A stretch of DNA of 29,094 bases from a virus: the IMG/VR virus record IMGVR_UViG_3300037137_000598, positions 1 to 29,094 of that record, one strand, 5' to 3'. Positions 7,906 through 26,696 of the stretch are shown piece after piece; position 1 is the stretch's first letter; each line of letters opens with the position of its first letter. The notes beneath the pieces were generated by a model. It worked only from the letters and a program-made list of their open reading frames with translations, was not told the origin of the DNA and did no database searches. Position numbers and translations under genes: made by a program.

Positions 7906-8832
7906 TCACGCGCTCTCGCCCTCAGCGGCCTTCTGCGCCTCCTCCAGTGTCTCCGGCTGCTCCGGTGCCTCCGCGGCCTTCTCCGGCTCGCTGAGCGCCA
8001 GCACGACGCCCTTGAACGCCCACGCGTACGCGGCCTTCGTCTCCTCCGGCCCCGGCGGCGGGAACTCGCCGCCCTCCCACGCCTTCGCCACGGCATTCGC
8101 CAGCCGCTTCCACCATTCGGCCGTCTCGCTCCGGTTCAGCTCGTCCAGCGCCTTCCCGAACGTGCTGGTCGCCAGGAACGCCTCGATGGCGGGCCAGTCC
8201 TGATTCGGGTCGAGATCGCGCTGTCCGAGCCGGATCGAGTTCGCGTCCTCGGCCGACGTGACCGCGATGGCCGTCGGGAGCAGTTGCTTCCCCGGGTCGA
8301 ACTCCGCGGTGCGCCGCTGCCCTTCGCTCCGCGGTGCGCGGCCTCCGGCGTCTCGCGTCGTCTCCTCCGGCGTGCTCGCGTCCGCGTCAGACACCTCGGC
8401 CGTGGCGAGCGCGAACGCCTGCGCGACGACGTACTTGAACGCCATCGTCATCGCCTTGCTCGTGGACTTGTCGCCCATGTCCGTGCCCTCGCCCCACCCG
8501 CTCGCCCGGAAGCTGTCTCCGAGCAGGCCGTAGAACGTGAACGCGACGTGCAGATTCACCTCGTACATCGTCTTGTTGTTGCCGGTGAGCCGCTCGCCAG
8601 TGATCCGCTCCCGCACGTCCGGCACCACGAACACGCCGTGCTTCGCCAGCAGCGGGTTGAGCGCGTTCATCACGTCGTCGTGGCCGCGGAACATGAACCG
8701 CTGCTGCGTGTTCTCCTGCGTCTTGCCGATGGCGGGCAGCTCGTCGATGATCGCCACCATCCGCTCGTACACGGTGCGCTTCGCCGGATCGGCTTGCCCA
8801 TCGCCCGGCGCGATCTCGTACGTCTGCGTCAT
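7906..8832 (-). CDS. erf: ERF-family single-strand annealing recombinase
   Basis: A 308-residue protein whose first 150 residues fit the ERF superfamily of phage single-strand annealing proteins. It has RTVYERMVAIIDELPAIGKT (19-38), RFMFRGHDDVMNALNPLLAK (45-64), a strand region with NLHVAFTF, and the signature GWGEGTDMGDKSTSKAMTMA (112-131) followed by FKYVVAQAF. ERF proteins bind single-stranded DNA and anneal complementary strands, used for genome circularisation and recombination. The C-terminal half is acidic and ends in an Ala/Glu tail, typical of regions that bind single-strand-binding proteins. An AGGAGGACGAC ribosome site precedes the ATG. Confidence 0.9.
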   Translation of the reverse strand: MTQTYEIAPGDGQADPAKRTVYERMVAIIDELPAIGKTQENTQQRFMFRGHDDVMNALNPLLAKHGVFVVPDVRERITGERLTGNNKTMYEVNLHVAFTFYGLLGDSFRASGWGEGTDMGDKSTSKAMTMAFKYVVAQAFALATAEVSDADASTPEETTRDAGGRAPRSEGQRRTAEFDPGKQLLPTAIAVTSAEDANSIRLGQRDLDPNQDWPAIEAFLATSTFGKALDELNRSETAEWWKRLANAVAKAWEGGEFPPPGPEETKAAYAWAFKGVVLALSEPEKAAEAPEQPETLEEAQKAAEGESA

Positions 8833-8900: not shown

Positions 8901-10088
8901 CTAGCGGGCGATGGCCGCCCACTCACGCTCCGGCATTGCGACCAGCGCGCCACCCAGGCGCTCCATCTCGGCCTGCCGGTCGAACCCGTCGGCGTCCTTC
9001 GCCGCGGCGGTCACGGCGTTCACCATGCCCCACTGCGTGAGGTCGCCGCCGGTGGCGAGATGCCTGAGCACGCTGGCGGCCTCGTTCTCGCTGAGGTCGA
9101 TCCGCTTCGCCAGCGTCTCGGTCGCGCTCACCGGATTGTCGATGGTCGTGCCGGTGCGGGCCTCGCGCATGGTCCGCACGATCTCCCCGAACGTCACGTC
9201 GCTGAGTGCCGCGGCGACGGCGTCCCGCACCTTCATGAAGAACGCGCGGTCGTCCGCTGCCAACGTGTCGTCCTGGTAGATCGCGTAGGCGCTCTCCTCC
9301 TGCTCACGCCCGACGTGGTACCGGCTGAGGCTGCGGTCACTGATGACCAGCCCGTTCAGGCAGCGGAGCCTCCAGATGAACGGCGTCACGCTGAGCGCGC
9401 CCGCCCCCACCTCGGAGTTGCGAATCTCCACGCCTGCCTGCACCACGTCGCCGCCGCCCTCCGGCCCGATCACGTGGTTCGTCGGGTCGATGTCGATGTC
9501 GGCGGTCAGCTCCGGCAGGACGGCCCTGATGTAGAGCCGCTCATCCGTGAGCGCCGCGACGTGGAAGCGCAGCCTGTCCTCTCCGAAGTCCTGGAACACG
9601 GGCACGACGGCGTGCGCGAGCAGCTCGTCATTGTCCAGGCGGCGGTAGCGGTTCGACAGGAACGCGCGCACGCGCCCGTCGATCATCCGCACCATCCGCG
9701 TCTCCGGCGTCTTGAGCAGCCAGTGCTGCACGTTCGTGTCGAGGAGCTGCGGGGCGGCCCCCCGCATTCGGTCGTAGTACTTCGCCGGGATGCCTAGCCG
9801 CTCCCTGATCTGCCGGTGCGCGTACTCGTTCACCGGCCCTCCGCTGACGCCGTCGTGGTCCTGCGTGTCGAAGGTGAGCAGCGAGTAGTGCTCGTCGCTC
9901 GCCCCCAACACGCCGGTCGCCTCGTCGTACGTCGGCTGCTGCATGGTCGTGAACGTCATGCGTCGGGTGTCCACGATGTAGTCGGCCTTCGTCTCCGCGA
10001 GCGTGAGCAGCCTCGCGGTCAGGTCCTGCAACGTGCCGTGCTCCTCTTGTCGGATTCGCTGCACGCTGGAATGCTCCATTACGGTCAT
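8901..10088 (-). CDS. DUF932 family phage/plasmid protein
   Basis: A 395-residue protein matching DUF932, a family widespread in phages and plasmids with no settled function. Visible signatures are LGIPAKYYDRM (about 97-107), WLLKTPETRMVRMIDGRVRAFLSNRYRRLDN (shown here by its key parts WLLK and RAFLSNRYR), and a C-terminal region with VTPFIWRLRCLNGLVI followed by a helical tail. Its length is normal for the family. It lies next to an ERF annealing gene, as DUF932 genes often do, which hints at a recombination or replication-linked role. The start ATG overlaps the upstream HNH stop, with GGAGG seven bases before. Confidence 0.85.
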   Translation of the reverse strand: MTVMEHSSVQRIRQEEHGTLQDLTARLLTLAETKADYIVDTRRMTFTTMQQPTYDEATGVLGASDEHYSLLTFDTQDHDGVSGGPVNEYAHRQIRERLGIPAKYYDRMRGAAPQLLDTNVQHWLLKTPETRMVRMIDGRVRAFLSNRYRRLDNDELLAHAVVPVFQDFGEDRLRFHVAALTDERLYIRAVLPELTADIDIDPTNHVIGPEGGGDVVQAGVEIRNSEVGAGALSVTPFIWRLRCLNGLVISDRSLSRYHVGREQEESAYAIYQDDTLAADDRAFFMKVRDAVAAALSDVTFGEIVRTMREARTGTTIDNPVSATETLAKRIDLSENEAASVLRHLATGGDLTQWGMVNAVTAAAKDADGFDRQAEMERLGGALVAMPEREWAAIAR

Positions 10089-11532: not shown

Positions 11533-11702
11533 AGCTGCCTCCGTGCCCGCCGCTGCGCCGCCCGGGCCGCCGGTGTCCAGCAGCCGTGCCCGGGCCAGCA
11601 GTAGCGGTTGCCGGTATGCGAGCTGAACACCCACTGCTCGTGCGGCAGCTTGCGCCCGCACTGCCCGCAGCAGTAGACGCGCGTCGTCGTGGTGCTCGCC
11701 AT
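11529..11702 (-). CDS. Cys-rich mini-protein, 57 residues
   Basis: It starts at ATG 11702, overlapping the stop of the amidotransferase gene, and ends in an ATGA overlap with the next gene, so translational coupling supports it. VYCCGQCGRKLP (9-20) and YCWPGHGCW (34-42) give a likely zinc site. The tail is Arg- and Ala-rich. No family recognised; it could be a small zinc-ribbon protein that binds RNA, DNA or a partner enzyme. Confidence 0.65.
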   Translation of the reverse strand: MASTTTTRVYCCGQCGRKLPHEQWVFSSHTGNRYCWPGHGCWTPAARAAQRRARRQL

Positions 11703-12700
11703 CAGGACCAGCTCCTCGGCACGTACATATCGTCGGCCTCCAGCAGCTCCTCGTCAGCGAGGCTCACGCCGTAGACCTCCTCGAACGCCGACCGGTAATC
11801 GACGCCGGTGTAGCGCATGAGGTCGCGTACCTCCTCCTCCATCCACGGCTCGCGCTCGACCAGCACCGGGGCGAGGTAGTCGTCCACCGGCGCGTCCAGC
11901 GTGAGCTGCCGGGTCACCGTCGGCGGGATGGTCGGGCTGATCCGCGGTGCGGACCAGCCCTTGCCCTTCGCCTTCCACGTCTGCTTCGGCCGCGGCTTGA
12001 CGACGCGGATCGTTGTCGTCTCCACCTTCCCGTTCACGCGCACCATCGTCCACTCCGGCACCTCGTGCCACTTGCCCTTCGGCACGCGCCCGAAGGTCAT
12101 GGCGCAGGCGGCCTCGATGGCTCTCCGCGTGCTGGCCCAGATGACCAGCTCGGTCGTGACCAGGTAGTGCAGCGGGTAGCCCTCCGTCCGGGCGAGCAGC
12201 AGCTCCTCCGGATGCTTCTCATCGACGACCGCGAAAGCCGCCCCACCGTCGAGGAGGTCGATGGCCTCCGCGGCGTGGTCCCATCCGGCGTAGCTCAGCA
12301 GCGCCGGGATGATCTCGCTGTCCACCTTCGCATGCCGCTTGAGGCCGAAGGCATCGAACAGCTCGGTCGCGTTGTAGATGGTGCCGTTGTGCACCGCCGC
12401 CATCCCGCCGTTGATCTGCGGGTGCGCGTTCATCACGTCGTCGCGTGCGCCTACGGTGGCGAAGCGTGTATGGAGCAGCAGCGTCTTGACCTCGTTCCTC
12501 ATCGCCTTCCGGCCGCGGACGAACCGGTGCGCTGGCTTCACCTCGCGCTGGAGGTGGCACTTGCCGTTCGGCATGAGCGCCAGCAGCCCGGTCGCGTCCG
12601 TGCCTCGGTTCTCGATTGCGAGCAACAGGCTGTCGGCCAGTCGCCCGAGCTTCGGGATCATCGCGTCTCCGCGTCTATGGACTCCTGCGATTCCACACAT
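11702..12700 (-). CDS. Stand-alone class II glutamine amidotransferase
   Basis: A 332-residue protein from ATG 12700 with GAGGAG upstream; removal of Met1 would expose the nucleophile Cys2 in MCGIAG. All class II (Ntn) amidotransferase landmarks are present: NRGTDATG (31-38), HTRFATVG (77-84), NAHP (91-94), VHNGTIYN (103-110) with the oxyanion Asn-Gly, and VDSEI (126-130). Such domains hydrolyse glutamine to release ammonia. No sugar isomerase, asparagine synthetase or purine-transferase domain follows; the C-terminal 110 residues are short and acidic. It must therefore pass ammonia, or act on a glutamine-like amide, with another protein. The amidoligase-family gene two positions upstream is the obvious partner. 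Confidence 0.9.
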   Translation of the reverse strand: MCGIAGVHRRGDAMIPKLGRLADSLLLAIENRGTDATGLLALMPNGKCHLQREVKPAHRFVRGRKAMRNEVKTLLLHTRFATVGARDDVMNAHPQINGGMAAVHNGTIYNATELFDAFGLKRHAKVDSEIIPALLSYAGWDHAAEAIDLLDGGAAFAVVDEKHPEELLLARTEGYPLHYLVTTELVIWASTRRAIEAACAMTFGRVPKGKWHEVPEWTMVRVNGKVETTTIRVVKPRPKQTWKAKGKGWSAPRISPTIPPTVTRQLTLDAPVDDYLAPVLVEREPWMEEEVRDLMRYTGVDYRSAFEEVYGVSLADEELLEADDMYVPRSWS

Positions 12701-12702
12701 CT

Positions 12703-12981
12703 CTACTGCTCCTCTCTGTCGTCGTCGTTCGGGTTCAGAATCTCGACCAGCCGTGCCCGCTCCAGCTCTACGAACAGCGTCTCGGGGTCGGCCAGCGAGT
12801 CGATGAATGTCCCGCTCCAGCGGATCGCCCGCTTGCCAAGGACCTGACGGAACTCGTCCTCGTCCCAGGCGTGCCACTGGCTGAGCCGGACCTTGTCCAG
12901 CAGCTCCTGCCAGTCCGGTGCCGAGTCCACGTGGCCGTTCGACCAGCGGACCCGTACCGGTGTCTGCGTCGTGTTGGTCAT
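12703..12981 (-). CDS. Small unknown protein between amidoligase and amidotransferase, 92 residues
   Basis: A short acidic protein with a beta N-terminus (TPVRVRWSNGHVDSAPDWQE), a helical middle (ELLDKVRLSQWHAWDEDEFR) and a long polar C-terminal helix. GAGAGGAGA precedes the ATG, and the stop lies two bases before the amidotransferase ATG, so the three genes are probably co-translated. No catalytic motif is visible. Because it sits inside the amidoligase/amidotransferase unit it could be a carrier, a substrate or an adaptor for the pathway; this is inference. Confidence 0.7.
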   Translation of the reverse strand: MTNTTQTPVRVRWSNGHVDSAPDWQELLDKVRLSQWHAWDEDEFRQVLGKRAIRWSGTFIDSLADPETLFVELERARLVEILNPNDDDREEQ

Positions 12982-13008
12982 GCTGTCTCCTCTCGTCCTC
13001 TCGTGGCC

Positions 13009-14013
13009 CTAGACCGTCGCCCAACCGAACTCGACTGCGCGTCCGATCAGGAAGGTGCGGGCCGTCTCGTTCATCCGGTCACCGAGGGTCAGGAACATCT
13101 CGCGGATCGAGGTATGCGGGGCGAGAGTCGTGCCCTGCTTCGCGGTGTCGATGATCGCCTGGCCGAACCGCAGCCAGGAGATGATCTTCTCGGCGTCGAG
13201 GGTGCCCTGGTGCTGCCGAATCTCGATGGTGCCGTGGCGGCCGTAGCTCGTCAGGTTCAGCGTCCGGTAGCGGTCGATGTAGACCCGGCGGAGGTCGCTG
13301 GTCGAACCGAGTGCGTTGACCGTGTTCATGTCGCTGCTCGTGAGACGGCGGCAGTAGCCGTTCGCGTCGTTCCGGCGGCTCTCGCTCACGAGGCCGTCGA
13401 TCAGGTTCTGGTTGTTGAACCAGCTCGTCGCGGTCGCCTTCACGGCGTTGATGTCGGCGTCGTTGATGTCGTGGTGGACGTGCGTTCCGCAGCTCTGGTT
13501 GACCGTGCCGCCGAGGGCGCGGAGAACGCGGCAGGCAGTCCGAACGGCCTGCTCGCCCTGCTCGCCCTGCAACGGCGGGGACACGATCTCCAGCCCGTGC
13601 TGGCCGCGGCCCGCGCTCAAGCTGCCGTCGCCCTTGACGCTCCAGTAGGTCGTGCCCGAGGAGCGGTCGCGGGACGGGAGGCCAGCGGCGTTCAGCGCGG
13701 CGATGATCTGGTCGCGGCTGATGCTGACCGGGAACATGCACTCAAGCTCGACGCCGAACATGCGGGCGATGCCGAGAGGGGCGGTGCGGGTCGTGCGCGG
13801 GACGCGCGGGCCAGCGGCGCGGCGGACGCGCTCGCAGCTCCGGCACTGACCGGAGTAGTGCTCGCGGCTGCTGGCGAAGCGGAAGGTGCGGGTCGCGTTC
13901 GCGTCGGCCTGGTTGAGGCTGGGAACGGCGACTCCGGTATGGCACGTGCGGCACTCCAGGTAGTAGGTGCCGGTGTCGTAGTTGTAACGGTGAAGGCGGG
14001 GCGTTGCGGGCAT
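13009..14013 (-). CDS. Amidoligase-family enzyme (COOH-NH2 ligase fold) with N-terminal zinc ribbon
   Basis: A 334-residue protein of the Amidoligase_2 type, related in fold to glutamine synthetase and gamma-glutamylcysteine ligase. Landmarks run in order: FGVELE (86-91), whose acidic pair would bind metal and ATP; WSVKGDGSL (124-132); HGLEIVSPPL (139-148); CGTHVHHD (175-182); and RHGTIEIRQHQGTLD (259-273). Family members are predicted to use ATP to join a carboxylate to an amine. Before this core, C21/C24 and C57/C60 form a zinc ribbon, perhaps for substrate or partner binding. It is first in its operon, with promoter TTGACT-17-CATGAT and AGGAGG before ATG 14013. The next-but-one gene is a class II amidotransferase, supporting an ammonia-using amide pathway. 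The substrate is unknown. Confidence 0.88.
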   Translation of the reverse strand: MPATPRLHRYNYDTGTYYLECRTCHTGVAVPSLNQADANATRTFRFASSREHYSGQCRSCERVRRAAGPRVPRTTRTAPLGIARMFGVELECMFPVSISRDQIIAALNAAGLPSRDRSSGTTYWSVKGDGSLSAGRGQHGLEIVSPPLQGEQGEQAVRTACRVLRALGGTVNQSCGTHVHHDINDADINAVKATATSWFNNQNLIDGLVSESRRNDANGYCRRLTSSDMNTVNALGSTSDLRRVYIDRYRTLNLTSYGRHGTIEIRQHQGTLDAEKIISWLRFGQAIIDTAKQGTTLAPHTSIREMFLTLGDRMNETARTFLIGRAVEFGWATV

Positions 14014-16645: not shown

Positions 16646-17221
16646 TCACCGCACGAACGCGAGGCCCGCCCGGGCGAAGTGGTTGTGCGGGTTCCGGTTG
16701 AGAGCAGCGCGCGCTCGTGCCTCCCTCGTGAACTCCTCGTCGTAGCGGAAGCCTGCCGCGGCCATCGCACCCTTCCAGTACGCGGCGGGCTGGCAGTTGA
16801 CGTGATGGTGCCCCGGCTGCCCCGGCTCGGCGTGCGTGAGGAGCACGCTGTCGGCGGCGCTGAACGTCTCCAGGAAGTTCGGGACGTGCTCCTCCTCGAC
16901 GTGCTCCACGAACTCGCACGACCAGGCGAGTCCGAAGTGGTAGGGCAGCTTGAGCGGACCCTGCGCGTAGTCGTGGCAGACGATGTCCTCGCGCCCCTGG
17001 TCGATCCCGTCCACTCCGAGCACGCGGCAGCCGCCGCTGGCGAAGTAGTCGAGCGCATGGCCCTCCCCGCAGCCCACATCGAGCACCGACTTCACTCCGC
17101 GCGCGAACACGAGCCAGTCCCACAGGTCGGGGAAGTAGGTCGCCGGGTCGCCACCCTTGATGTAGCCGCCGAGGTGCGGCTGCGCCTGGTCGGCGTAGAA
17201 CTCAGGCGCGAGTCCCGGCAT
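16646..17221 (-). CDS. SAM-dependent methyltransferase
   Basis: A 191-residue class I methyltransferase. Motif I is VKSVLDVGCGEGHALDYF (43-60), motif II has VLGVDGID (67-74), a later acidic position is VCHDYAQGPL (81-90), and FGLAWSCEFVEHVEEEHV (96-113) is the usual motif IV region of small-molecule and sugar methyltransferases. A His-rich loop GHHHVN (137-142) and a WKGAMAAAGF helix follow. It overlaps the glycosyltransferase gene upstream by 20 bases, so the pair probably act in one pathway, for instance methylating a sugar added to a virion protein. The substrate is not readable. Confidence 0.85.
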   Translation of the reverse strand: MPGLAPEFYADQAQPHLGGYIKGGDPATYFPDLWDWLVFARGVKSVLDVGCGEGHALDYFASGGCRVLGVDGIDQGREDIVCHDYAQGPLKLPYHFGLAWSCEFVEHVEEEHVPNFLETFSAADSVLLTHAEPGQPGHHHVNCQPAAYWKGAMAAAGFRYDEEFTREARARAALNRNPHNHFARAGLAFVR

Positions 17222-18338
17222 ACCAACCTCGGTCCCACAGCGTCCCGAGCCGCGTGAACCAGTCGGCGTACATCGGGCCTACGGCATCCAGCGAGAAGCG
17301 TCTGAGCGCGGCCTTCCGCACCACCTTCGGCTTCATCGCCATCGCCCGCTCGGTCGCCGCGCAGGCCTCCGCGAGCGTGGTGAACCGCAGCTCGTCGGGC
17401 ACCGTGTCCACGAACGCTCCGAAGTCGGTCGAGACGGCCGGAGTCCCGCAGAGCGGCCCTTCCACAGCCACTGCTCCGAACGGCTCGATGTAGAGCGTCG
17501 GGACAAGGAGCGCCCGCGCTCGGCCCATCAGCTCGTTACGCTCGGCCACGCCGACGGTGCCAACGTAGTGAACGTCTCCCTCCAGCCGCGAGCCGTCGTG
17601 GCACTCGATCAGCCCCTCGCTGCTGCGGGCGACGCCGCTGCCCGCGAAGTAGACCGGCAGCTCCAGCTCGCGGCCGATCTCGGCGGCGATCTGGATTCCC
17701 TTCCGCGCGATCATTCGACCGACGAAGCAGAGGTAGTCGTCCTTCCGGTTGTGCAGCGACCACTCCTCCGGGGCAAAGAAGTTAGGGATCACGGTGTCGT
17801 AGAAGCGGCCGGTCGCCTGGCCCCACTTGCCGTACATGAAGTGCCGCCAGGCGTTCGACTCGAAGCAGATGTGCGGGTGATCGGCCATGCTCTTGTCCGA
17901 GATCATCACGCCGTCGTAGCCCGCGGCCCACTCGACCGTCTGCGCCTGCGGGAGCGCCTCGTAGATCGGCTTCATGGCGAGGCCTCCGGTGAGCAGCACG
18001 ATGTCACCCCTCTCGTAGCGGACGCCGATCTCCCCGATGGCTCGGGCGTTGATCGTGCGGTAGGAGAAGTCGGTGGATGACCAGCTCCCGGCCACGATGG
18101 GCAGCATGTTCGCGTCCTCGTCGCCGTACCACTGGCGCATCTCCGCATCGGTGAACAGCGGCACGAGGTCGACGCCCGGATCGACCTCGGAGTGCTCGCC
18201 CCCGTACAGCGTGATCGGCCAGCCGAGCGCCGTCATCATCGTCAGGAACTTCGCCGTCTTGGTCGTGAACGCGCACACCGTTACGTCGCGGGAGACGTGC
18301 GCGTGCGGGAGGGCAACGAGGTGAAGGGTAGGACTCAT
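17202..18338 (-). CDS. GT-B glycosyltransferase (family 4-like)
   Basis: A 378-residue protein of the GT-B fold. The nucleotide-sugar domain is clear: DYLCFVGRMIARKGIQIAAE (201-220), ELPVYFAGSGV (226-236), HYVGTVGVAERNEL (257-270) and the E-x7-E motif EPFGAVAVE (285-293) followed by GTPAVSTDFGAFVDTV. The N-terminal acceptor domain has SRDVTVCAFTTKTAKF and ALGWPITLYGGEHSE. It transfers a sugar, with retention as family 4 members do, to an unknown acceptor. It lies between a tail-tip gene (ATGA overlap) and a methyltransferase within the virion operon, so glycosylation of a virion or tail protein is the simplest idea. Confidence 0.88.
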   Translation of the reverse strand: MSPTLHLVALPHAHVSRDVTVCAFTTKTAKFLTMMTALGWPITLYGGEHSEVDPGVDLVPLFTDAEMRQWYGDEDANMLPIVAGSWSSTDFSYRTINARAIGEIGVRYERGDIVLLTGGLAMKPIYEALPQAQTVEWAAGYDGVMISDKSMADHPHICFESNAWRHFMYGKWGQATGRFYDTVIPNFFAPEEWSLHNRKDDYLCFVGRMIARKGIQIAAEIGRELELPVYFAGSGVARSSEGLIECHDGSRLEGDVHYVGTVGVAERNELMGRARALLVPTLYIEPFGAVAVEGPLCGTPAVSTDFGAFVDTVPDELRFTTLAEACAATERAMAMKPKVVRKAALRRFSLDAVGPMYADWFTRLGTLWDRGWYAGTRA

Positions 18339-20586: not shown

Positions 20587-23500
20587 CTACATCCCGTGCG
20601 TGCCCTGGTAGGAGAAGTCGCCGCTGGCGCTGCTTGTCTTGCGCTGCCGGTGCGCTTCGGGATGATCCTGCCCACTGTTCAGCTTGTGGAGCTGGTTGCG
20701 AATCTCGCGGAGCAAGCTGATCTGCGTATTGCCTTGCGCGGTGGAGACAGGCCGCACGGAGATGCCCGCTGTCGGCCGTGTACCGGCTCCTGCGGGCCTG
20801 TTCGCACCGATGGCGGCTGCCGTGCTCGCATTCGGCGTAGAGCCACCCACGAGGCCGCTCGTGTTCATGCCCGGGATTAGGTTGCCGATCAGGTTCGTCG
20901 TGAAGCCAGCCATCGTCTGGAGGAAGTCGAACTCCTGCTTCTTGAGTGCGAGCACGTCGCCCTGCTTCTTACTGTTCTGCTTCTTCAACTCCGCGATGGC
21001 CGCCTGCTCCTCCGCGATCTGATTGCGCAGGCGCTTCCACTCGACCGTGCCGCGCTTGACGTGGGCCTGCGCCTTCCGGAGTGCCGCGATGAGCCGCTGC
21101 CGCGCACTCACCTCGCGGTTGATCGACGCCTGCGTGCGGTTGTCACTCCCGGCGTCGGCTCCGATGCCCGCCAGCTCAACGTCGAGCTGCGTGCTCTCGA
21201 TGCGGTTCTGGTCAGCCTCCTGGCGGCGCTCGGCTCGGAGCCGCGCGATCTCCCGGCGCACCGCGGCCTTCCCCAGTCGAAGGTTCTGCAACTCGTCGCG
21301 GAGCTGCTTCGTGCTGCGCCCCTGCCGCCTGACCTCCGCGATCCGCGCCTGCACCTCCGCAATCCCTCTCCGCAGGAAGTCGCGCAGCGCGTCGTTCGCC
21401 TTGATGTCGTCGGCCACGCCCGCCGTCGCGCCTGCTGCCGAGATACGTGCCTCCCGGCGCTGCTGCTCGGAGCTGAGCGCATCCACGATGGACTGATCGC
21501 GTGCCTCCTGCGCGGTCTTAATCTTGTCGGCATGCTCCTGCGCCGTGCGCGCCGCCTCCTGCGCAGACGACTCCTGATCGGCCAGGATCGACTCGACGTC
21601 GGCTCGCCGTTGATTCACGATGTCCGCGGCCTTGTGGACGGCGGTGTCGCGTCCCTTGCCCTGCGGGAGTGCGCGTGCTTCGGTGAGCGCCCGCTGCGCC
21701 TCGGCCAGTTGCCTCTGACGGATCGAGAGCAGGTTCCCACCGGTCGCCTCAGTGACGGCCGCTTGCGTGTCCAGGGTCCCGCCCGCCTCGGCGTTCAGCC
21801 CGCGGATGAATGCCTTGATGAGATGTCGCGCGCTCTCCTCGACCTTCTTATCGCCGGAGTCGATGCCGCCCGTAATGGCCCCGAGCATGTCGAGGCCCAG
21901 GTTCGCCAGCGCCGGGAACCCGAGCTGCCCTGCCCGGATCAGTCCCTCGGTCACCGTGTCGCCCGCCTTGTGTGCCTTCTCGGCGGCTGCCTCCTCGTCG
22001 AAGGTGATGCCGAACTGAATCGGCACCGGGGGAAGCTGACCCGTGTTCTGGACCTTGCGGATGATCTCGTCGATCTGCTCGGCCGCGCGCTTGCCCGCAG
22101 GCGTCGTCTCGTCGAGGCCCTTCCGCACAGCCTGTAGGCCCAGAACAAGCTCGTTGAGCGCGGTCAGCCCGCCGCCCTGAGTGCGGAACGCTCCGAACAG
22201 GTTCGCTACGTCGGTGCGTGCCTGGCCCATCTCCTGCGCGATGTTCTGCACCTTGTCGCCACCGATGCCGACGGCATCCCCGAAGCGCCGCACGCCGTCT
22301 GACGCCAGGTTGAACTCGCGGACGAACACAAGCGGGCCGCCCGTCTGGAACTTGAACAGCTTCGTGAGCACGCCTGCGGCCCGGTCGCCGCCGGGGATGA
22401 TCCCAGTGATGGCACCACCCAGTGCGCCTACTCCGTGCGCCAGCGCGGTCGCATTGTCGAGTGCGTCCTTCTCCTCGCGGACGGCGTTACGCAGGAACTT
22501 CACGAAGGCAGTGAGCGGGCCGACGGTCAGCTCGCCCAGCTCGACGCCGAAGTCACTCAGCTCCTTCCTTAGCTCACGCGTCTGACCGTGGAACGCCTTC
22601 GCTCGGGCCTCGGCCTGCTCCTGCGCCAGCCCGAGCTTGTCGGCACTGGCCGCCGCCTGCTCGTAGCCAGCACGCTGCTGCTGGATCAACGGAAGCACGG
22701 CGCGAATCCCGCGGATGCTGAATATCTGCGTCAGCACCTGCCGCTGCTGGCGGACGTTGAGATGGTCGAGCGCATCCGATAGGACGACGAAGGCGTCGGG
22801 CCGGAGGTTGCCCGTCTCGTCGATAAGGTCGCTCAGCTCCAGATGAATCTTCTTGAGGCCCTCGCGCACCGGCGTGCTCCCGCCCGCCAGCTTGAGCAGC
22901 GATTGGCGCAGCAGCGTGCCACTCTGCGATGCGCTGATCCCGGCGTGCGCCATCTGGATGATGAAGGTCGCCGTGTCGCGGACGCTCAGCCCGAGCGTAT
23001 GGGCAACGGGAGCCACCGCCGTCAGGCCGGATGCGAAGTCGCTCGCGCTTCCGGCTCCGGAGAGCTGCGCGGCCGTGAGCGCATCGGTCACGTCCTGCGC
23101 GTCGCTCGCCTCCAGGTTGTAGGCACGGAGCAGCCTCGTGAGCTGGTCGGTCGAGTCTCCGATGTTCTGCTCGGTCGCCGCCGAGAGCACGAGCGCCTCC
23201 CGTGCCAGCGTCTGCGAATCCGCGAGATCGAAGCCTGCGCGCGTCAGGTCAGCGATGGCCTTCGCCGCATCGAGCGCGCTGGTCGCTGGCAGGTTCAGGT
23301 CAGCACCGAGCTGCTTCGAGGTGTCGCTCGCTCGCGCCATCTCCTCCTCTGAGGCATGAGTAGACGCCTCGATCAGATGCATCTGCTCGTCGAACTGACT
23401 CGCCTCGTCCGCCGACTTGAAGAAGCCGATGGCCGCCGCCGTCGCTGCCAGGAACGCCGGATTGACTCCGAGGCTCGCTCCGCGCAGACCGGTCATCGTG

Positions 23501-24000
23501 GCCGTCTCGGCCAGGATTGCTTCGGTCGCCTCTACGCTCGCCGCGGCGTGCGTGCGGGTAGCGAATACAGCGCGCTCCTCGGCCGCCGCCTTCGCGGCTA
23601 GTGCTCCGGTCGCTTGCACGAGCGCGTCGATCTCGGCCACCGTGGCAGCAGTTGTCGCGTCCGTGATGGCGAACAGCGCGCGCTGCGCCGCCGCGTCGGC
23701 CTCCGTCGCTGCCGCCTTCTGTACGTGCCCTCGCGCCGCTGCGCTATTCAGCCCCTGCCCTGCCACGAGCGCGGCGTTGTACCGCTCCTGCGCGGCCGTG
23801 AGCAGCGACTCCGCAGTCGCCGTCTCCCCTGCCGCCTCCGATAGCCGGTTGAGCGCACCGACGTTCTGCGTGGTGCTGGTCGGCGGGACCGCCACTCGCG
23901 TCGCCGCGAGCTGACTCCGTATCTGAGCCTCGGCCTGCGCCTTGAACGCGGCTGTCTCCGGAACTACCTCGACGAACGCGACAGCAATCGGCTCGCCCAC
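20587..24000 (-). CDS. Tail tape measure protein
   Basis: A 1137-residue protein, the largest in the window. The N-terminal part (about 1-180) is Ala-rich and helical. About 190-460 is a TP901-1-type tape-measure core: KSADEASQFDEQMHLIEAST, DLTRAGFDLADSQTLAREAL, ATEQNIGDSTDQLTRLLRAY, LSVRDTATFIIQMAHAGISA and a VLTQIFSIRGIRAVLPL motif. A hydrophobic stretch with GALGGAITGIIPGG follows. Long coiled coil occupies about 780-1060. It sets tail length and ends in the tube. It starts at GTG 24000, overlapping the TAG of the chaperone frame by one base. Confidence 0.93.
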   Translation of the reverse strand: MGEPIAVAFVEVVPETAAFKAQAEAQIRSQLAATRVAVPPTSTTQNVGALNRLSEAAGETATAESLLTAAQERYNAALVAGQGLNSAAARGHVQKAAATEADAAAQRALFAITDATTAATVAEIDALVQATGALAAKAAAEERAVFATRTHAAASVEATEAILAETATMTGLRGASLGVNPAFLAATAAAIGFFKSADEASQFDEQMHLIEASTHASEEEMARASDTSKQLGADLNLPATSALDAAKAIADLTRAGFDLADSQTLAREALVLSAATEQNIGDSTDQLTRLLRAYNLEASDAQDVTDALTAAQLSGAGSASDFASGLTAVAPVAHTLGLSVRDTATFIIQMAHAGISASQSGTLLRQSLLKLAGGSTPVREGLKKIHLELSDLIDETGNLRPDAFVVLSDALDHLNVRQQRQVLTQIFSIRGIRAVLPLIQQQRAGYEQAAASADKLGLAQEQAEARAKAFHGQTRELRKELSDFGVELGELTVGPLTAFVKFLRNAVREEKDALDNATALAHGVGALGGAITGIIPGGDRAAGVLTKLFKFQTGGPLVFVREFNLASDGVRRFGDAVGIGGDKVQNIAQEMGQARTDVANLFGAFRTQGGGLTALNELVLGLQAVRKGLDETTPAGKRAAEQIDEIIRKVQNTGQLPPVPIQFGITFDEEAAAEKAHKAGDTVTEGLIRAGQLGFPALANLGLDMLGAITGGIDSGDKKVEESARHLIKAFIRGLNAEAGGTLDTQAAVTEATGGNLLSIRQRQLAEAQRALTEARALPQGKGRDTAVHKAADIVNQRRADVESILADQESSAQEAARTAQEHADKIKTAQEARDQSIVDALSSEQQRREARISAAGATAGVADDIKANDALRDFLRRGIAEVQARIAEVRRQGRSTKQLRDELQNLRLGKAAVRREIARLRAERRQEADQNRIESTQLDVELAGIGADAGSDNRTQASINREVSARQRLIAALRKAQAHVKRGTVEWKRLRNQIAEEQAAIAELKKQNSKKQGDVLALKKQEFDFLQTMAGFTTNLIGNLIPGMNTSGLVGGSTPNASTAAAIGANRPAGAGTRPTAGISVRPVSTAQGNTQISLLREIRNQLHKLNSGQDHPEAHRQRKTSSASGDFSYQGTHGM

Positions 24001-24362
24001 TACGCCCCCATCCCGCGGAAGATGTCGAGCGCCTGGTTGTTCATTTTGGCGACCTCATCCTCGTCGTACTCCACCGCAGCCGCCGCATCGAGTCGAATCT
24101 CCTCGGCTCGCTCACTGCGTGCATGACCAACGGCCCAGTCATCCAGAACCGAGACGGCCTCGTCCAGCCCCATCCCGCGCCGGAGCTGGTCGTCGATGAG
24201 CAGTGCGTATGCGGCGTCGCAGTAGTCACGGATAGTTAGTGAACCTCGATCTCCTCCGGCAAGGGTGACTCGTCCTTCGATGAGACTTCGTCGCTCCCAG
24301 GCCCAGTACCAGATTCCGAGAGCGATGAGAAAGGGCGGTCGGTCATCTGCTCCCATATCCAC
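24000..24362 (-). CDS. Tail assembly chaperone, second frame (made by -1 frameshift)
   Basis: An open frame of 120 codons overlapping the first chaperone gene by 127 bases in the -1 frame. It probably has no start of its own: ribosomes slip on the CCCTTTC at 24329-24335, giving a 217-residue fusion whose last 109 residues come from here, beginning LIALGIWYWAWERR. The visible part is helical and acidic (RDYCDAAYALLIDDQLRRGM, EEIRLDAAAAVEYDEDEVAK). In siphoviruses the long form binds the tape measure protein and recruits tail tube subunits. It lies directly before the tape measure gene, as expected. Confidence 0.85.
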   Translation of the reverse strand: MDMGADDRPPFLIALGIWYWAWERRSLIEGRVTLAGGDRGSLTIRDYCDAAYALLIDDQLRRGMGLDEAVSVLDDWAVGHARSERAEEIRLDAAAAVEYDEDEVAKMNNQALDIFRGMGA

Positions 24363-24652
24363 GTGCGGATGCCGTTGAGCTGTCCGAAGTCGATGGCCTT
24401 CTCGCCGCGCAGCTTGCGCCAGGCCTCGTGGTCATCCTCCGCGATGGCGAGCAGGATCAAGTGCTCCGTGCCCTCCGCGCTGATGCCGATGACCACGCCG
24501 CCGGTATCGAGAATCTCGCGCTCACCGCGCGCCGCGGCCTCCAGCGTGTCGGCCCATTCCACCGGATCGACCGCGCGCGTCCGGAAGGTGTGACCCTCCA
24601 ACTCGAACGTCTTGCGTTCCTTCGTGAAGCTGACTTCTCCGTTGGTACTCAT
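24236..24652 (-). CDS. Tail assembly chaperone, first frame
   Basis: A 138-residue protein in the position of phage lambda G or mycobacteriophage tail chaperones. The N-terminus has FTKERKTFELEGHTFRTRAV, followed by the helix VEWADTLEAAARGEREIL and the segment EHLILLAIAEDDHEAWRKL. The tail after residue 108 (Ser/Glu/Asp-rich) is replaced by the second frame when ribosomes slip. The short form is the major product; the fusion is made at low frequency. Both are absent from finished virions in known phages. Confidence 0.85.
   Translation of the reverse strand: MSTNGEVSFTKERKTFELEGHTFRTRAVDPVEWADTLEAAARGEREILDTGGVVIGISAEGTEHLILLAIAEDDHEAWRKLRGEKAIDFGQLNGIRTWIWEQMTDRPFSSLSESGTGPGSDEVSSKDESPLPEEIEVH
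24329..24335 (-). promoter_or_regulatory. Programmed -1 frameshift slippery site CCCTTTC
   Basis: On the minus strand the heptamer C CCT TTC fits the X XXY YYZ rule in the zero frame of the first chaperone gene (codons CCT-TTC, Pro107-Phe108). Slipping back one base re-pairs to CCC-TTT and enters the second chaperone frame, which stays open to the tape measure gene. The frame relation, the overlap and the gene order all match tail-chaperone frameshifting in other siphoviruses. I did not fold a downstream stimulating structure. Confidence 0.85.
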
Positions 24653-24669
24653 GCGGGGCGATTCCTCCT

Positions 24670-25017
24670 CTACAGTCGGGCAGCCGGGAGTGCCGGTGCC
24701 AAGAACGGGTATGTGCGCCCTCCGCGCAGGCCCGTCTCCAACGGGCGGCCGTACTCTACGTTCGTACCGATCTTCGCCACAAGACCGCTCGCACGCTCCT
24801 CGATCTGGTAGGAGATGCTGCTTCGCAGCCGTCCCGTCGGCACGTTCGGGCCGCGGCCCTCCGGGTTGTTGGCTCCCTCCACCGCTCGGCCGGATGCGTT
24901 GAGCTTCGCGGCGCTCTCGACGTTGATCGCCCGGCGCTTGAGATCGCGGCCGATTGGCCCATTCGGGTCGCGGAACATGCGCTGGAGCGCAGCGTCGTTC
25001 CAGACGATCCGCGTCAT
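24670..25017 (-). CDS. HK97 gp10-like neck/head-tail protein
   Basis: A 115-residue protein from ATG 25017 (ATGA overlap with the upstream gene). The pattern MFRDPNGPIGRDLKRRAINV, then VPTGRLRSSISYQIEERASG (59-78) and IGTNVEYGRPLETGLRGG ending in YPFLAPAL, is the familiar layout of HK97 gp10-type and actinophage minor neck proteins. It likely helps join the head connector to the tail. The longer frame upstream of this ATG is a shadow of the preceding gene. Confidence 0.85.
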   Translation of the reverse strand: MTRIVWNDAALQRMFRDPNGPIGRDLKRRAINVESAAKLNASGRAVEGANNPEGRGPNVPTGRLRSSISYQIEERASGLVAKIGTNVEYGRPLETGLRGGRTYPFLAPALPAARL

Positions 25018-25559
25018 GTCGCCAGGTCCTCCGGGTAGCCGTCGAGCGCGACGGTGAACTGCATCTCCCATCCGCCGCAGCCTCCTCCCGGCGTGATCGA
25101 CTGCATGCCCCAGCTCACGAGATCGCTGCACTTGGAGAACAGCAGCGGCGGGTCCGTGTTGATCGCGTTGAATACCCGGTTCCACAGCGCCCACCCGTCC
25201 GCGAGTATCTGGCGGCTCGCCTCGGTCACGGCGTCTGCGTCCGGCGGGACATACTGCTTCGTGCCCTTGCTGATGTGCCCGGTCGGCACGCAGCGTGTCG
25301 CGTGGATGCGAAGCGTCGGCCGGATGATCTGGAACACCGGGCTGAGCACGCTCGGGCTGCGCGCTCCCTCGCCCACCGGGTTCACCCACACGACGAGCTG
25401 CTCGCAGCAGTCGTGAACGGGCACGCCGTAGGCGATGAGCTGGCGGTCCGGCGCTCCGTCGAGGTCGGTTCCTAGCTGCTCGGGCACCGAGTCGAGTGCT
25501 CCGGCAGCGACCTCCAGAAGTTCGGCGGCGGTGTCGAACAGGGCACCCGCGTCCGCCAC
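25014..25559 (-). CDS. Tail-terminator-like protein
   Basis: A 181-residue protein from GTG 25559, between the head-tail adaptor and the gp10-like protein. The N-terminal helix (ALFDTAAELLEVAAGALDSV), a QLIAYGVPVHDCCEQLVVWV strand pair, the strand RPTLRIHATRCVPTG and the helix AVTEASRQILADGWALWNRV match tail-terminator (neck) proteins of actinobacteriophages as I know them. The C-terminus returns to a strand (WEMQFTVALDGYP). It would cap the tail tube at the neck. It has several Cys residues. Confidence 0.7.
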   Translation of the reverse strand: MADAGALFDTAAELLEVAAGALDSVPEQLGTDLDGAPDRQLIAYGVPVHDCCEQLVVWVNPVGEGARSPSVLSPVFQIIRPTLRIHATRCVPTGHISKGTKQYVPPDADAVTEASRQILADGWALWNRVFNAINTDPPLLFSKCSDLVSWGMQSITPGGGCGGWEMQFTVALDGYPEDLAT

Positions 25560-25562
25560 GAT

Positions 25563-26696
25563 CTAGCTCCCTGCCGGTGCGCGGAACCTCCGCGGGTAGT
25601 CGAGGTCGGGCGACCACACGCTGCTACGACCTCCTCCGTCGTCGCTGAACAGGCTCACGAAGCTGTCGATGGCAGCGATCCCAGTCGTGCCCGTCTTGAG
25701 CGCCGCCGCCACGAACGGCACCGTCTCGATGGTGATGCCCTCGCGCACCAGCCTGCTCACGCCTTCGGGCAGCGAGCACGCGCCACTGCCGGTCGGGCAC
25801 GCCTGCCATATCTCGCAGGCCAGCGCCATCGCCGCACTCCGTCCTGCCTGCGGCGGATCAGCGCCGTACGTGTAACTGATGGCGAACGTGCCCTCCTCCG
25901 TCTCGGGGAGGTCCATGATCTGGCACCCGGGCCAGACCAGCCGCCGGTTCGGCTCGGTCACGTCGCGCATCCTGACCAGCACGTTCGGCTCCATGAGCGC
26001 GTACTCGTCCGCGTCCAGGGGCAACCCGTCGATCAGAACCTCCTCGATGCTGCGGATGGGCACGCCCGCGAGGACTACCTCGCTGGTCGGGGAGCAGCCG
26101 CACACATGCGTCTCGCACGCCCACCGCGCTCGCGTCGGGTCCCACGTGAAGTCGAGGCCGGTCGCCCACGGCCCCCAGCAACCGCACCCCTGGTTGCAGG
26201 GCCGCACGGTGACCGGGCCGCACTCGCCCGAGTAGAGGCCGTCGCTGACCTCGTACAGAATCTCGGTGGCCGACCGGATGGCTGCGTCCTGATTGTCCGT
26301 CGTGTCGTCTGAGAACCCCTCACAACACGCTGAGACGGCTTCTCTGCTCGTCCACGCGACACAAGGGGGTCCGGTCGCGCTCGGGTCGCTCTCCAGCGGA
26401 GGGAGCGGCGAGAGGCCAAGGATGGCGTCCTGGACCGTGAGGTCCTCGTTGGTCGAGTGCTGCTCGTCGTAGCTGCCGTCCTCGCTCCACACCATCGAGT
26501 AGTCGCCCTCGGCCGCCGGGGCCGTGACCACGATGGAGTAGATGCCGGTGACCCCGATCTCCAGAATCCCGGCCGTCGTCGGGCCGAACACCGTGGTGCC
26601 TTCGTTGTCGTCGATCTTGAAGGCGACGGTTCCAACGAGTCCGGAGATGCCGGAGTTGAACGTCGCTTCAAAAGACTCTGAGGGTGTGCGCGCCAC
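25563..26696 (-). CDS. Head-tail adaptor with N-terminal beta domain
   Basis: A 377-residue protein from GTG 26696. Residues about 9-90 form a beta-sandwich-like domain (FNSGISGLVGTVAFKIDDNE, TGIYSIVVTAPAAEGDYSMV) of the type seen in virion decoration and fibre proteins. Residues about 110-345 resemble an actinophage head-to-tail connector: FSDDTTDNQDAAIRSATEIL, VLAGVPIRSIEEVLIDGLPL, RRLVWPGCQ and AISYTYGADPPQAGRSAAMA. Many paired cysteines (CCEGF, CNQGCGCWG, CETHVCGCS) suggest disulphides or a metal site. It is a fusion compared with the usual short adaptor. The ribosome site at the chosen start is weak. Confidence 0.75.
   Translation of the reverse strand: MARTPSESFEATFNSGISGLVGTVAFKIDDNEGTTVFGPTTAGILEIGVTGIYSIVVTAPAAEGDYSMVWSEDGSYDEQHSTNEDLTVQDAILGLSPLPPLESDPSATGPPCVAWTSREAVSACCEGFSDDTTDNQDAAIRSATEILYEVSDGLYSGECGPVTVRPCNQGCGCWGPWATGLDFTWDPTRARWACETHVCGCSPTSEVVLAGVPIRSIEEVLIDGLPLDADEYALMEPNVLVRMRDVTEPNRRLVWPGCQIMDLPETEEGTFAISYTYGADPPQAGRSAAMALACEIWQACPTGSGACSLPEGVSRLVREGITIETVPFVAAALKTGTTGIAAIDSFVSLFSDDGGGRSSVWSPDLDYPRRFRAPAGS

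Follow-up and report, generated by a model that had tools for sequence, protein, structure and literature searches.

A probable programmed −1 frameshift yields two tail assembly chaperones in an uncultivated phage clade

Directly upstream of its tape measure gene, the virus record analysed here (the window; 29,094 bases) carries two overlapping minus-strand reading frames in the place of a tail chaperone pair. The second frame overlaps gene G and stays open to the tape measure start. Judging from sequence comparisons, we put the probability at about 92% that this region gives rise to two tail assembly chaperones through programmed −1 ribosomal frameshifting. The features in question are the following.

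24236–24652, minus strand: gene G, the predicted zero-frame tail assembly chaperone, 138 aa, ATG start
24000–24431, minus strand: −1 open frame, stop to stop
24329–24335, minus strand: putative slippery heptamer C_CCU_UUC, in register, identical in the relatives L010, L004, and L003
24332–24335, minus strand: C_CCU tetramer, the portion common to the wider family
24000–24329, minus strand: predicted T extension (post-shift, beginning LIALG), from alignment with relatives
24354–24362, minus strand: possible own starts of the −1 frame (GTG 24362, ATG 24356), judged not used, with weak anti-Shine-Dalgarno pairing
24664–24671, minus strand: Shine-Dalgarno sequence of G, AGAGGAGG, anti-Shine-Dalgarno duplex −11.8 kcal/mol

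The original prediction had named CCCTTTC at 24329–24335 as an in-register slippery heptamer within a 127-base overlap, the second frame being −1 relative to the first, with products of 138 and 217 residues. Read on the minus strand, each of these statements holds: the zero frame runs CGC CCT TTC from 24335 to 24329, so that the X_XXZ_ZZN pattern (three identical bases, three identical bases, any base; zero-frame register) lies at 24335–24329, and the 127-base figure applies when the second frame is counted from its GTG (24000–24362). Taken from stop to stop (24431–24000), the −1 frame overlaps G by 196 bases. A −1 slip at CCCTTTC gives a 217-residue G-T fusion with the junction ...MTDRPF-LIALG..., and the T stop and the tape measure start have one base in common. 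Most ribosomes would pass C_CCU_UUC unshifted and make the 138-aa G protein; a minority, we infer, slips back one base—at a rate that is likewise presumed—to make the 217-aa G-T protein. At the slip, tRNA-Pro would exchange CCU for CCC and tRNA-Phe would exchange UUC for UUU, these being the tRNAs presumed to move. By analogy with lambda, G would coat the tape measure protein and G-T would recruit the tube subunit.

How unusual is such a site? Across 7303 codons in 23 chosen minus-strand ORFs, we counted eight in-register XXXYYYZ sites, seven of which were CCCGGGN; CCCTTTC was the sole one with A or T as Y. In random codon runs drawn from the codon usage of the window (20,000 trials each), an in-register site of the A/T type arose by chance in 3.8% of 65-codon and 2.5% of 42-codon runs, and any XXXYYYZ site in 23% and 15%, respectively. 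The rarity of the site is therefore modest by itself, and the weight of the case rests on conservation.

The gene neighbourhood supports the assignment of the pair to tail chaperones lying ahead of the tape measure gene, as had been proposed, for the next gene is indeed a tape measure gene.

20587–24000, minus strand: tape measure protein gene (Pfam PhageMin_Tail, 3.3e-34; several PHROG tape measure families)
24670–25059, minus strand: HK97-gp10-like neck/tail completion gene (Pfam and PHROG matches)
25563–26696, minus strand: head-tail adaptor gene (phrog_783; PHROG match)

Together with the HK97-gp10-like and adaptor genes, a phrog_810 gene lies upstream of G. Pam4, Gina, TurkishDelight, and Margaery are organised in much the same way, with an adaptor gene followed by two small genes, a pair of small ORFs where the chaperones would lie, and then the tape measure gene. 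Elsewhere on the minus strand, the window carries neighbouring amidoligase-like (phrog_2443, 2.5e-42) and glutamine amidotransferase-like (phrog_14519, 4.2e-34) genes at 11702–14013, and a glycosyltransferase-like gene (17202–18338; phrog_3408, 2.3e-48) downstream of the tail genes. It also encodes a 395-aa protein of unassigned function with a strong PHROG match (8901–10088, minus strand; phrog_1362, 2.6e-51), near an Erf-like annealing protein at 7906–8832.

Scans of IMG/VR returned four near relatives, with G identities of 80% (L010), 62% (L004), 44% (L003), and 26% (L002). CCCTTTC is in register in all three of the nearest (44–80% identity), and the synonymous loss of the heptamer that would have spoken against a shift was thus absent from these close relatives. 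Nine bases, CGCCCTTTC, are invariant across the window and these three, in which third positions upstream in G differ in 36–52% of comparisons. The fourth relative, L002, keeps C_CCU and lacks the heptamer (C_CCU_ACG). Further searches gave nothing: neither scans of viral contigs with G alone or the tape measure alone, nor both scans of bacterial genomes, nor tblastn of T in named phages, absences that weigh little because the insensitive single-protein scan missed L010, which was later recovered by alignment. In L004, a 239-aa open frame beginning MPELLSPRLALAYLPDRL (8923–9642) directly follows the T stop, where the relatives start their tape measure gene. From 0 to about 100 nt past the site, both the zero-frame tail (GPGS..SSKDESPSP) and the −1 frame (WAWE.RSLIEGRVTL) are well conserved in the window clade, and −1 third positions are less variable there (0.315) than beyond the overlap (0.513).

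The same comparisons bear on a rival account, in which ribosomes would initiate independently on the −1 frame, at GTG 24362 or ATG 24356, making it a gene in its own right. Both codons do occur in the −1 frame ahead of the site, and L010, L004, and L003 have an ATG or GTG at the place of the window ATG, with anti-Shine-Dalgarno duplexes reaching −5.1 kcal/mol (L004). Moreover, inspection by eye suggests that the syntenic phages Arri and phiAsp2 carry the T-like region as an ORF of its own, and the scan detected no convincing C_CCY shift in them. In the window, however, duplexes at the two candidate starts amount to just −1.7 and −2.6 kcal/mol, weaker than both the background mean within G (−5.0) and the duplex of G itself (−11.8), and the presence of ATG 24356 is explained by the conserved zero-frame WxWEQMT in which it lies. 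In L002, the −1 frame opens 3 nt ahead of CCC, after a stop, and lacks any start ahead of the conserved WAWE..LIEG; translation of the whole of T there would require a shift, yet the heptamer is missing. In 25 of 40 relatives, the −1 frame runs from its opening to the site without any ATG, GTG, or TTG. Independent translation of the second frame is hence very improbable, and frameshifting, as originally proposed, is favoured.

That one gene had been split into two frames by an assembly error or by transcriptional slippage seems hardly credible: although metagenomes are the source of the window and of its nearest relatives, the same arrangement of frames recurs in four other metagenome contigs and in isolated phages, and the site has no long homopolymer.

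If G and T are read as one product, the window clade can be compared with more distant phages. The joined G-T profile of the clade matched a profile of 33 other G-T fusions with an hhalign E value of 4.3e-8 and aligned through the junction, while the parts taken separately gave 5.2e-5 (G) and 1.5e-3 (T). Swapping their order gave 8.6e-4 and reversal 0.059, while the lowest value among 60 column-shuffled decoys was 0.014. The gap between the joined value and both the wrong-order and decoy values supports homology of the window clade to a wider chaperone family with a C_CCY site (below), and joining the frames in order adds to that homology. Against single subgroups, the fused profile reached E values of 1.6e-6 to 1.8e-3; with the Microbacterium set alone, matches of the separate parts were weak (G, 0.0038; T, 0.075), and neither window protein matched a Pfam or PHROG family at E ≤ 1.

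Structure prediction for G (pLDDT 71, pTM 0.61) placed the last helix at residues 89–104, just before the shift at Pro107, with low confidence in the zero-frame tail from residue 112 on; the T model was poor (pLDDT 57.5). The best BFVD match of the G model was a named tail assembly chaperone (E 7.1e-4, the sole one below 0.001 among the matches listed), as were 18 of the best 50. On re-alignment to the PDB, first place went to the uncharacterised 3fgx (Z 7.6, rmsd 3.6, 86 residues), followed by the HK97 chaperone 2ob9 (Z 4.9, rmsd 5.5, 82 residues), either of which may reflect a common arrangement; the resemblance of the predicted fold to 2ob9 is suggestive only.

Tracing the family outward from L002 gave 46 sites: five from the window and its near relatives, 23 from named phage records, and 18 from further IMG/VR loci. 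Forty of them were non-redundant at 90% over 240 nt. Because the family was collected with query proteins starting at the proline, the sample favours phages with such a layout. C_CCY occupied the homologous place in 38 of the 40 (33 CCT, 5 CCC); the remaining two, SilentRX (GGGAAAA in register) and Sunfish (TTT CCT), were excluded from the profile comparison. The scan gave no convincing C_CCY shift overlap in Xkcd426, L005, Arri, or phiAsp2, which lie outside the 46 sites, and the site region is missing in L057. Single linkage at 65% identity gave 14 clusters, 12 of them with C_CCY. Proline codons elsewhere in the same genes stand in a C_CCY context in 40 of 211 cases, versus 38 of 38 at the shift place (12 of 12 clusters). 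This comparison replaces our initial binomial enrichment figures for C_CCT, which were overstated: the T is dictated wherever the −1 frame has an aromatic codon, and related phages are not independent. Taken alone, the C preceding the codon is weak evidence (10^-2.4 over 12 clusters, given the amino acids). At 15 of the 40 sites a zero-frame stop lies at +13, and at two (L002, Pam4) the −1 frame opens at −3; assuming one shift place throughout the family, these limits would confine it to about 16 nt, with C_CCY as the slippery motif therein.

The codon that follows differs among lineages. At the 38 C_CCY sites, the next zero-frame codon was ACT (14), TCT (8), CCT (6), TTC (4), ACG (3), ACC (2), or TCC (1). 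Since only TTC, or CCT after CCC, lets the second tRNA re-pair, a heptamer is completed in eight of the 38, through TTC in four and through CCT after CCC in another four (Metamorphoo, Megan, L048, and L056); the other 30 are C_CC.Y tetramers. The proposed conservation of the heptamer accordingly stood in the nearest clade and did not extend to distant relatives, where just C_CCY is common: the full C_CCU_UUC is a feature of the clade, not of the family.

Might the tetramer suffice in the window, too? The shift would then be real, with C_CCU working through re-pairing of one tRNA and UUC incidental, a variant compatible with the heptamer explanation. Besides the family-wide counts, it can draw on Sharma et al. 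2014, whose E. coli assays covered the full sets of 16 tetramers and 64 heptamers and in which C_CC.U and C_CC.C shift as tetramers when given a stimulator (PMC4066793). Against it, with an identical stimulator the strongest tetramer in that study remained some tenfold weaker than the strongest heptamer (PMC4066793), and the window clade has no evident stimulator. TTC is retained after CCT in all four members of the clade, a weak point in that TTC makes up 96% of the Phe codons of the window. On balance, we regard action of the tetramer alone as unlikely, though by no means far-fetched. The E. coli set of Z_ZZN and X_XXZ_ZZN motifs contains both C_CC.U_UU.C of the window, named there among the high-level heptamers, and C_CC.Y of the family (PMC4066793); both sites thus fall in known motif classes, and carrying the E. 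coli behaviour over to them is an inference, since the hosts of these phages are other bacteria.

Stimulators were sought in RNA folding. Family-wide, RNA from +9 to +75 had a mean z of −1.72 against dinucleotide shuffles (n=40), compared with −0.30 at +90, −0.06 at −90, and 0.05 at −180 (Wilcoxon p < 1e-4 for each versus +9, kinship ignored, and somewhat favoured by a start chosen after seeing where hairpins begin). An earlier test at +12 gave a mean z of −1.14 versus −0.11 upstream. With z below −2 at 17 of 40 sites, a downstream fold is predicted in many, not all, family members. It is absent from the window clade, where z is −0.19 for the window and 0.75, −0.17, and −0.48 for the others. 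RNAalifold on the four window-clade sequences predicted 23 pairs, two with two-sided changes, and single folds of these four plus L002 were no better than shuffles (z 0.84, 1.47, 1.68, −0.11, −0.21). As to one hairpin common to the family, a 13-bp stem seen in FuzzBuster was rejected: across 17 sequences it lacked covariation (74.7% of cells paired, compared with 74.5% in shuffles), and RNAalifold predicted no pairs at that region. Also rejected was an upstream Shine-Dalgarno-like stimulator as a selected element. GGAG/GAGG about 10–14 nt upstream of the sites is striking by eye, yet anti-Shine-Dalgarno pairing averaged −7.38 kcal/mol over 40 sites and −7.39 in synonymous recodings (mean p 0.62); the stretch is accounted for by the amino acids and goes with a conserved Glu codon.

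Tentatively, the slip site of the family may be the single-codon tetramer C_CC.Y, often combined with lineage-specific downstream folding, the window lineage having completed the heptamer C_CCU_UUC and dispensed with the fold. In our judgement this is somewhat less likely than not, and the corresponding trade-off between heptamer and downstream fold (9 heptamer versus 30 tetramer sites, p = 0.024) fell to p = 0.33 once sites were collapsed to clusters.

The lambda G/G-T pair lies just ahead of the tape measure gene and has the heptamer GGGAAAG. Lambda and the window would share a −1 shift, two products, and a place ahead of the tape measure, whereas the heptamer differs and window G has no sequence-family match. 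In lambda, the two products arise by a low-level −1 shift near the end of G, and frameshifting in tail chaperone genes is well known (reviewed in PMC5009743); the chaperone frameshift predicted here is of this known kind. Further counterparts are found in Microbacterium, Curtobacterium, and Streptomyces phages and in Pam4, which carry tail assembly chaperone pairs as well. Those of Margaery, Gina, Hendrix, Kelcole, Kithara, TurkishDelight, and Pam4 resemble the window in the −1 offset, the C_CCY place, and a homologous fused product; unlike the window, the pairs of these groups mostly have the tetramer only, and many, not all, have folded downstream RNA. Six of the 23 named records (Kithara, Hendrix, SilentRX, Sunfish, Kelcole, OneinaGillian) annotate the joined gene and 17 do not. 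In L024 and L035 (SM23, PIS136), a deposited opposite-strand gene covers the chaperone region, likely a misannotation.

A survey of Microbacterium phages describes shifts for some EA subclusters (PMC7302621). Sharma et al. surveyed IS elements and enterobacterial genomes, and the available part of their paper makes no mention of a C_CCY chaperone phage family (PMC4066793). Searching the literature by titles and abstract openings, we found no description of C_CCY chaperone sites among the matches listed and nothing on CCCTTTC with frameshifting; of the matches for CCCUUUC, none concerned phage tails by title. According to PRFect, which proposed eight backward motifs, most of the annotated shift overlaps in its phage set lack the classic motif (PMC10885494). 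For some of these motif-less overlaps, the C_CC.Y tetramer offers a concrete candidate motif.

For the uncultivated clade represented by the window, the predicted shift now has a solid comparative footing. In the wider chaperone family, the shift point would be narrowed to about 16 bases, provided that all members share the place. What is added to the known kind of frameshift is the family-wide C_CCY place together with a testable contrast between tetramer and heptamer lineages. If the tentative account of that contrast is true, these phages would form a natural series in which the trade-off of weak and strong shift motifs against stimulators could be tested.
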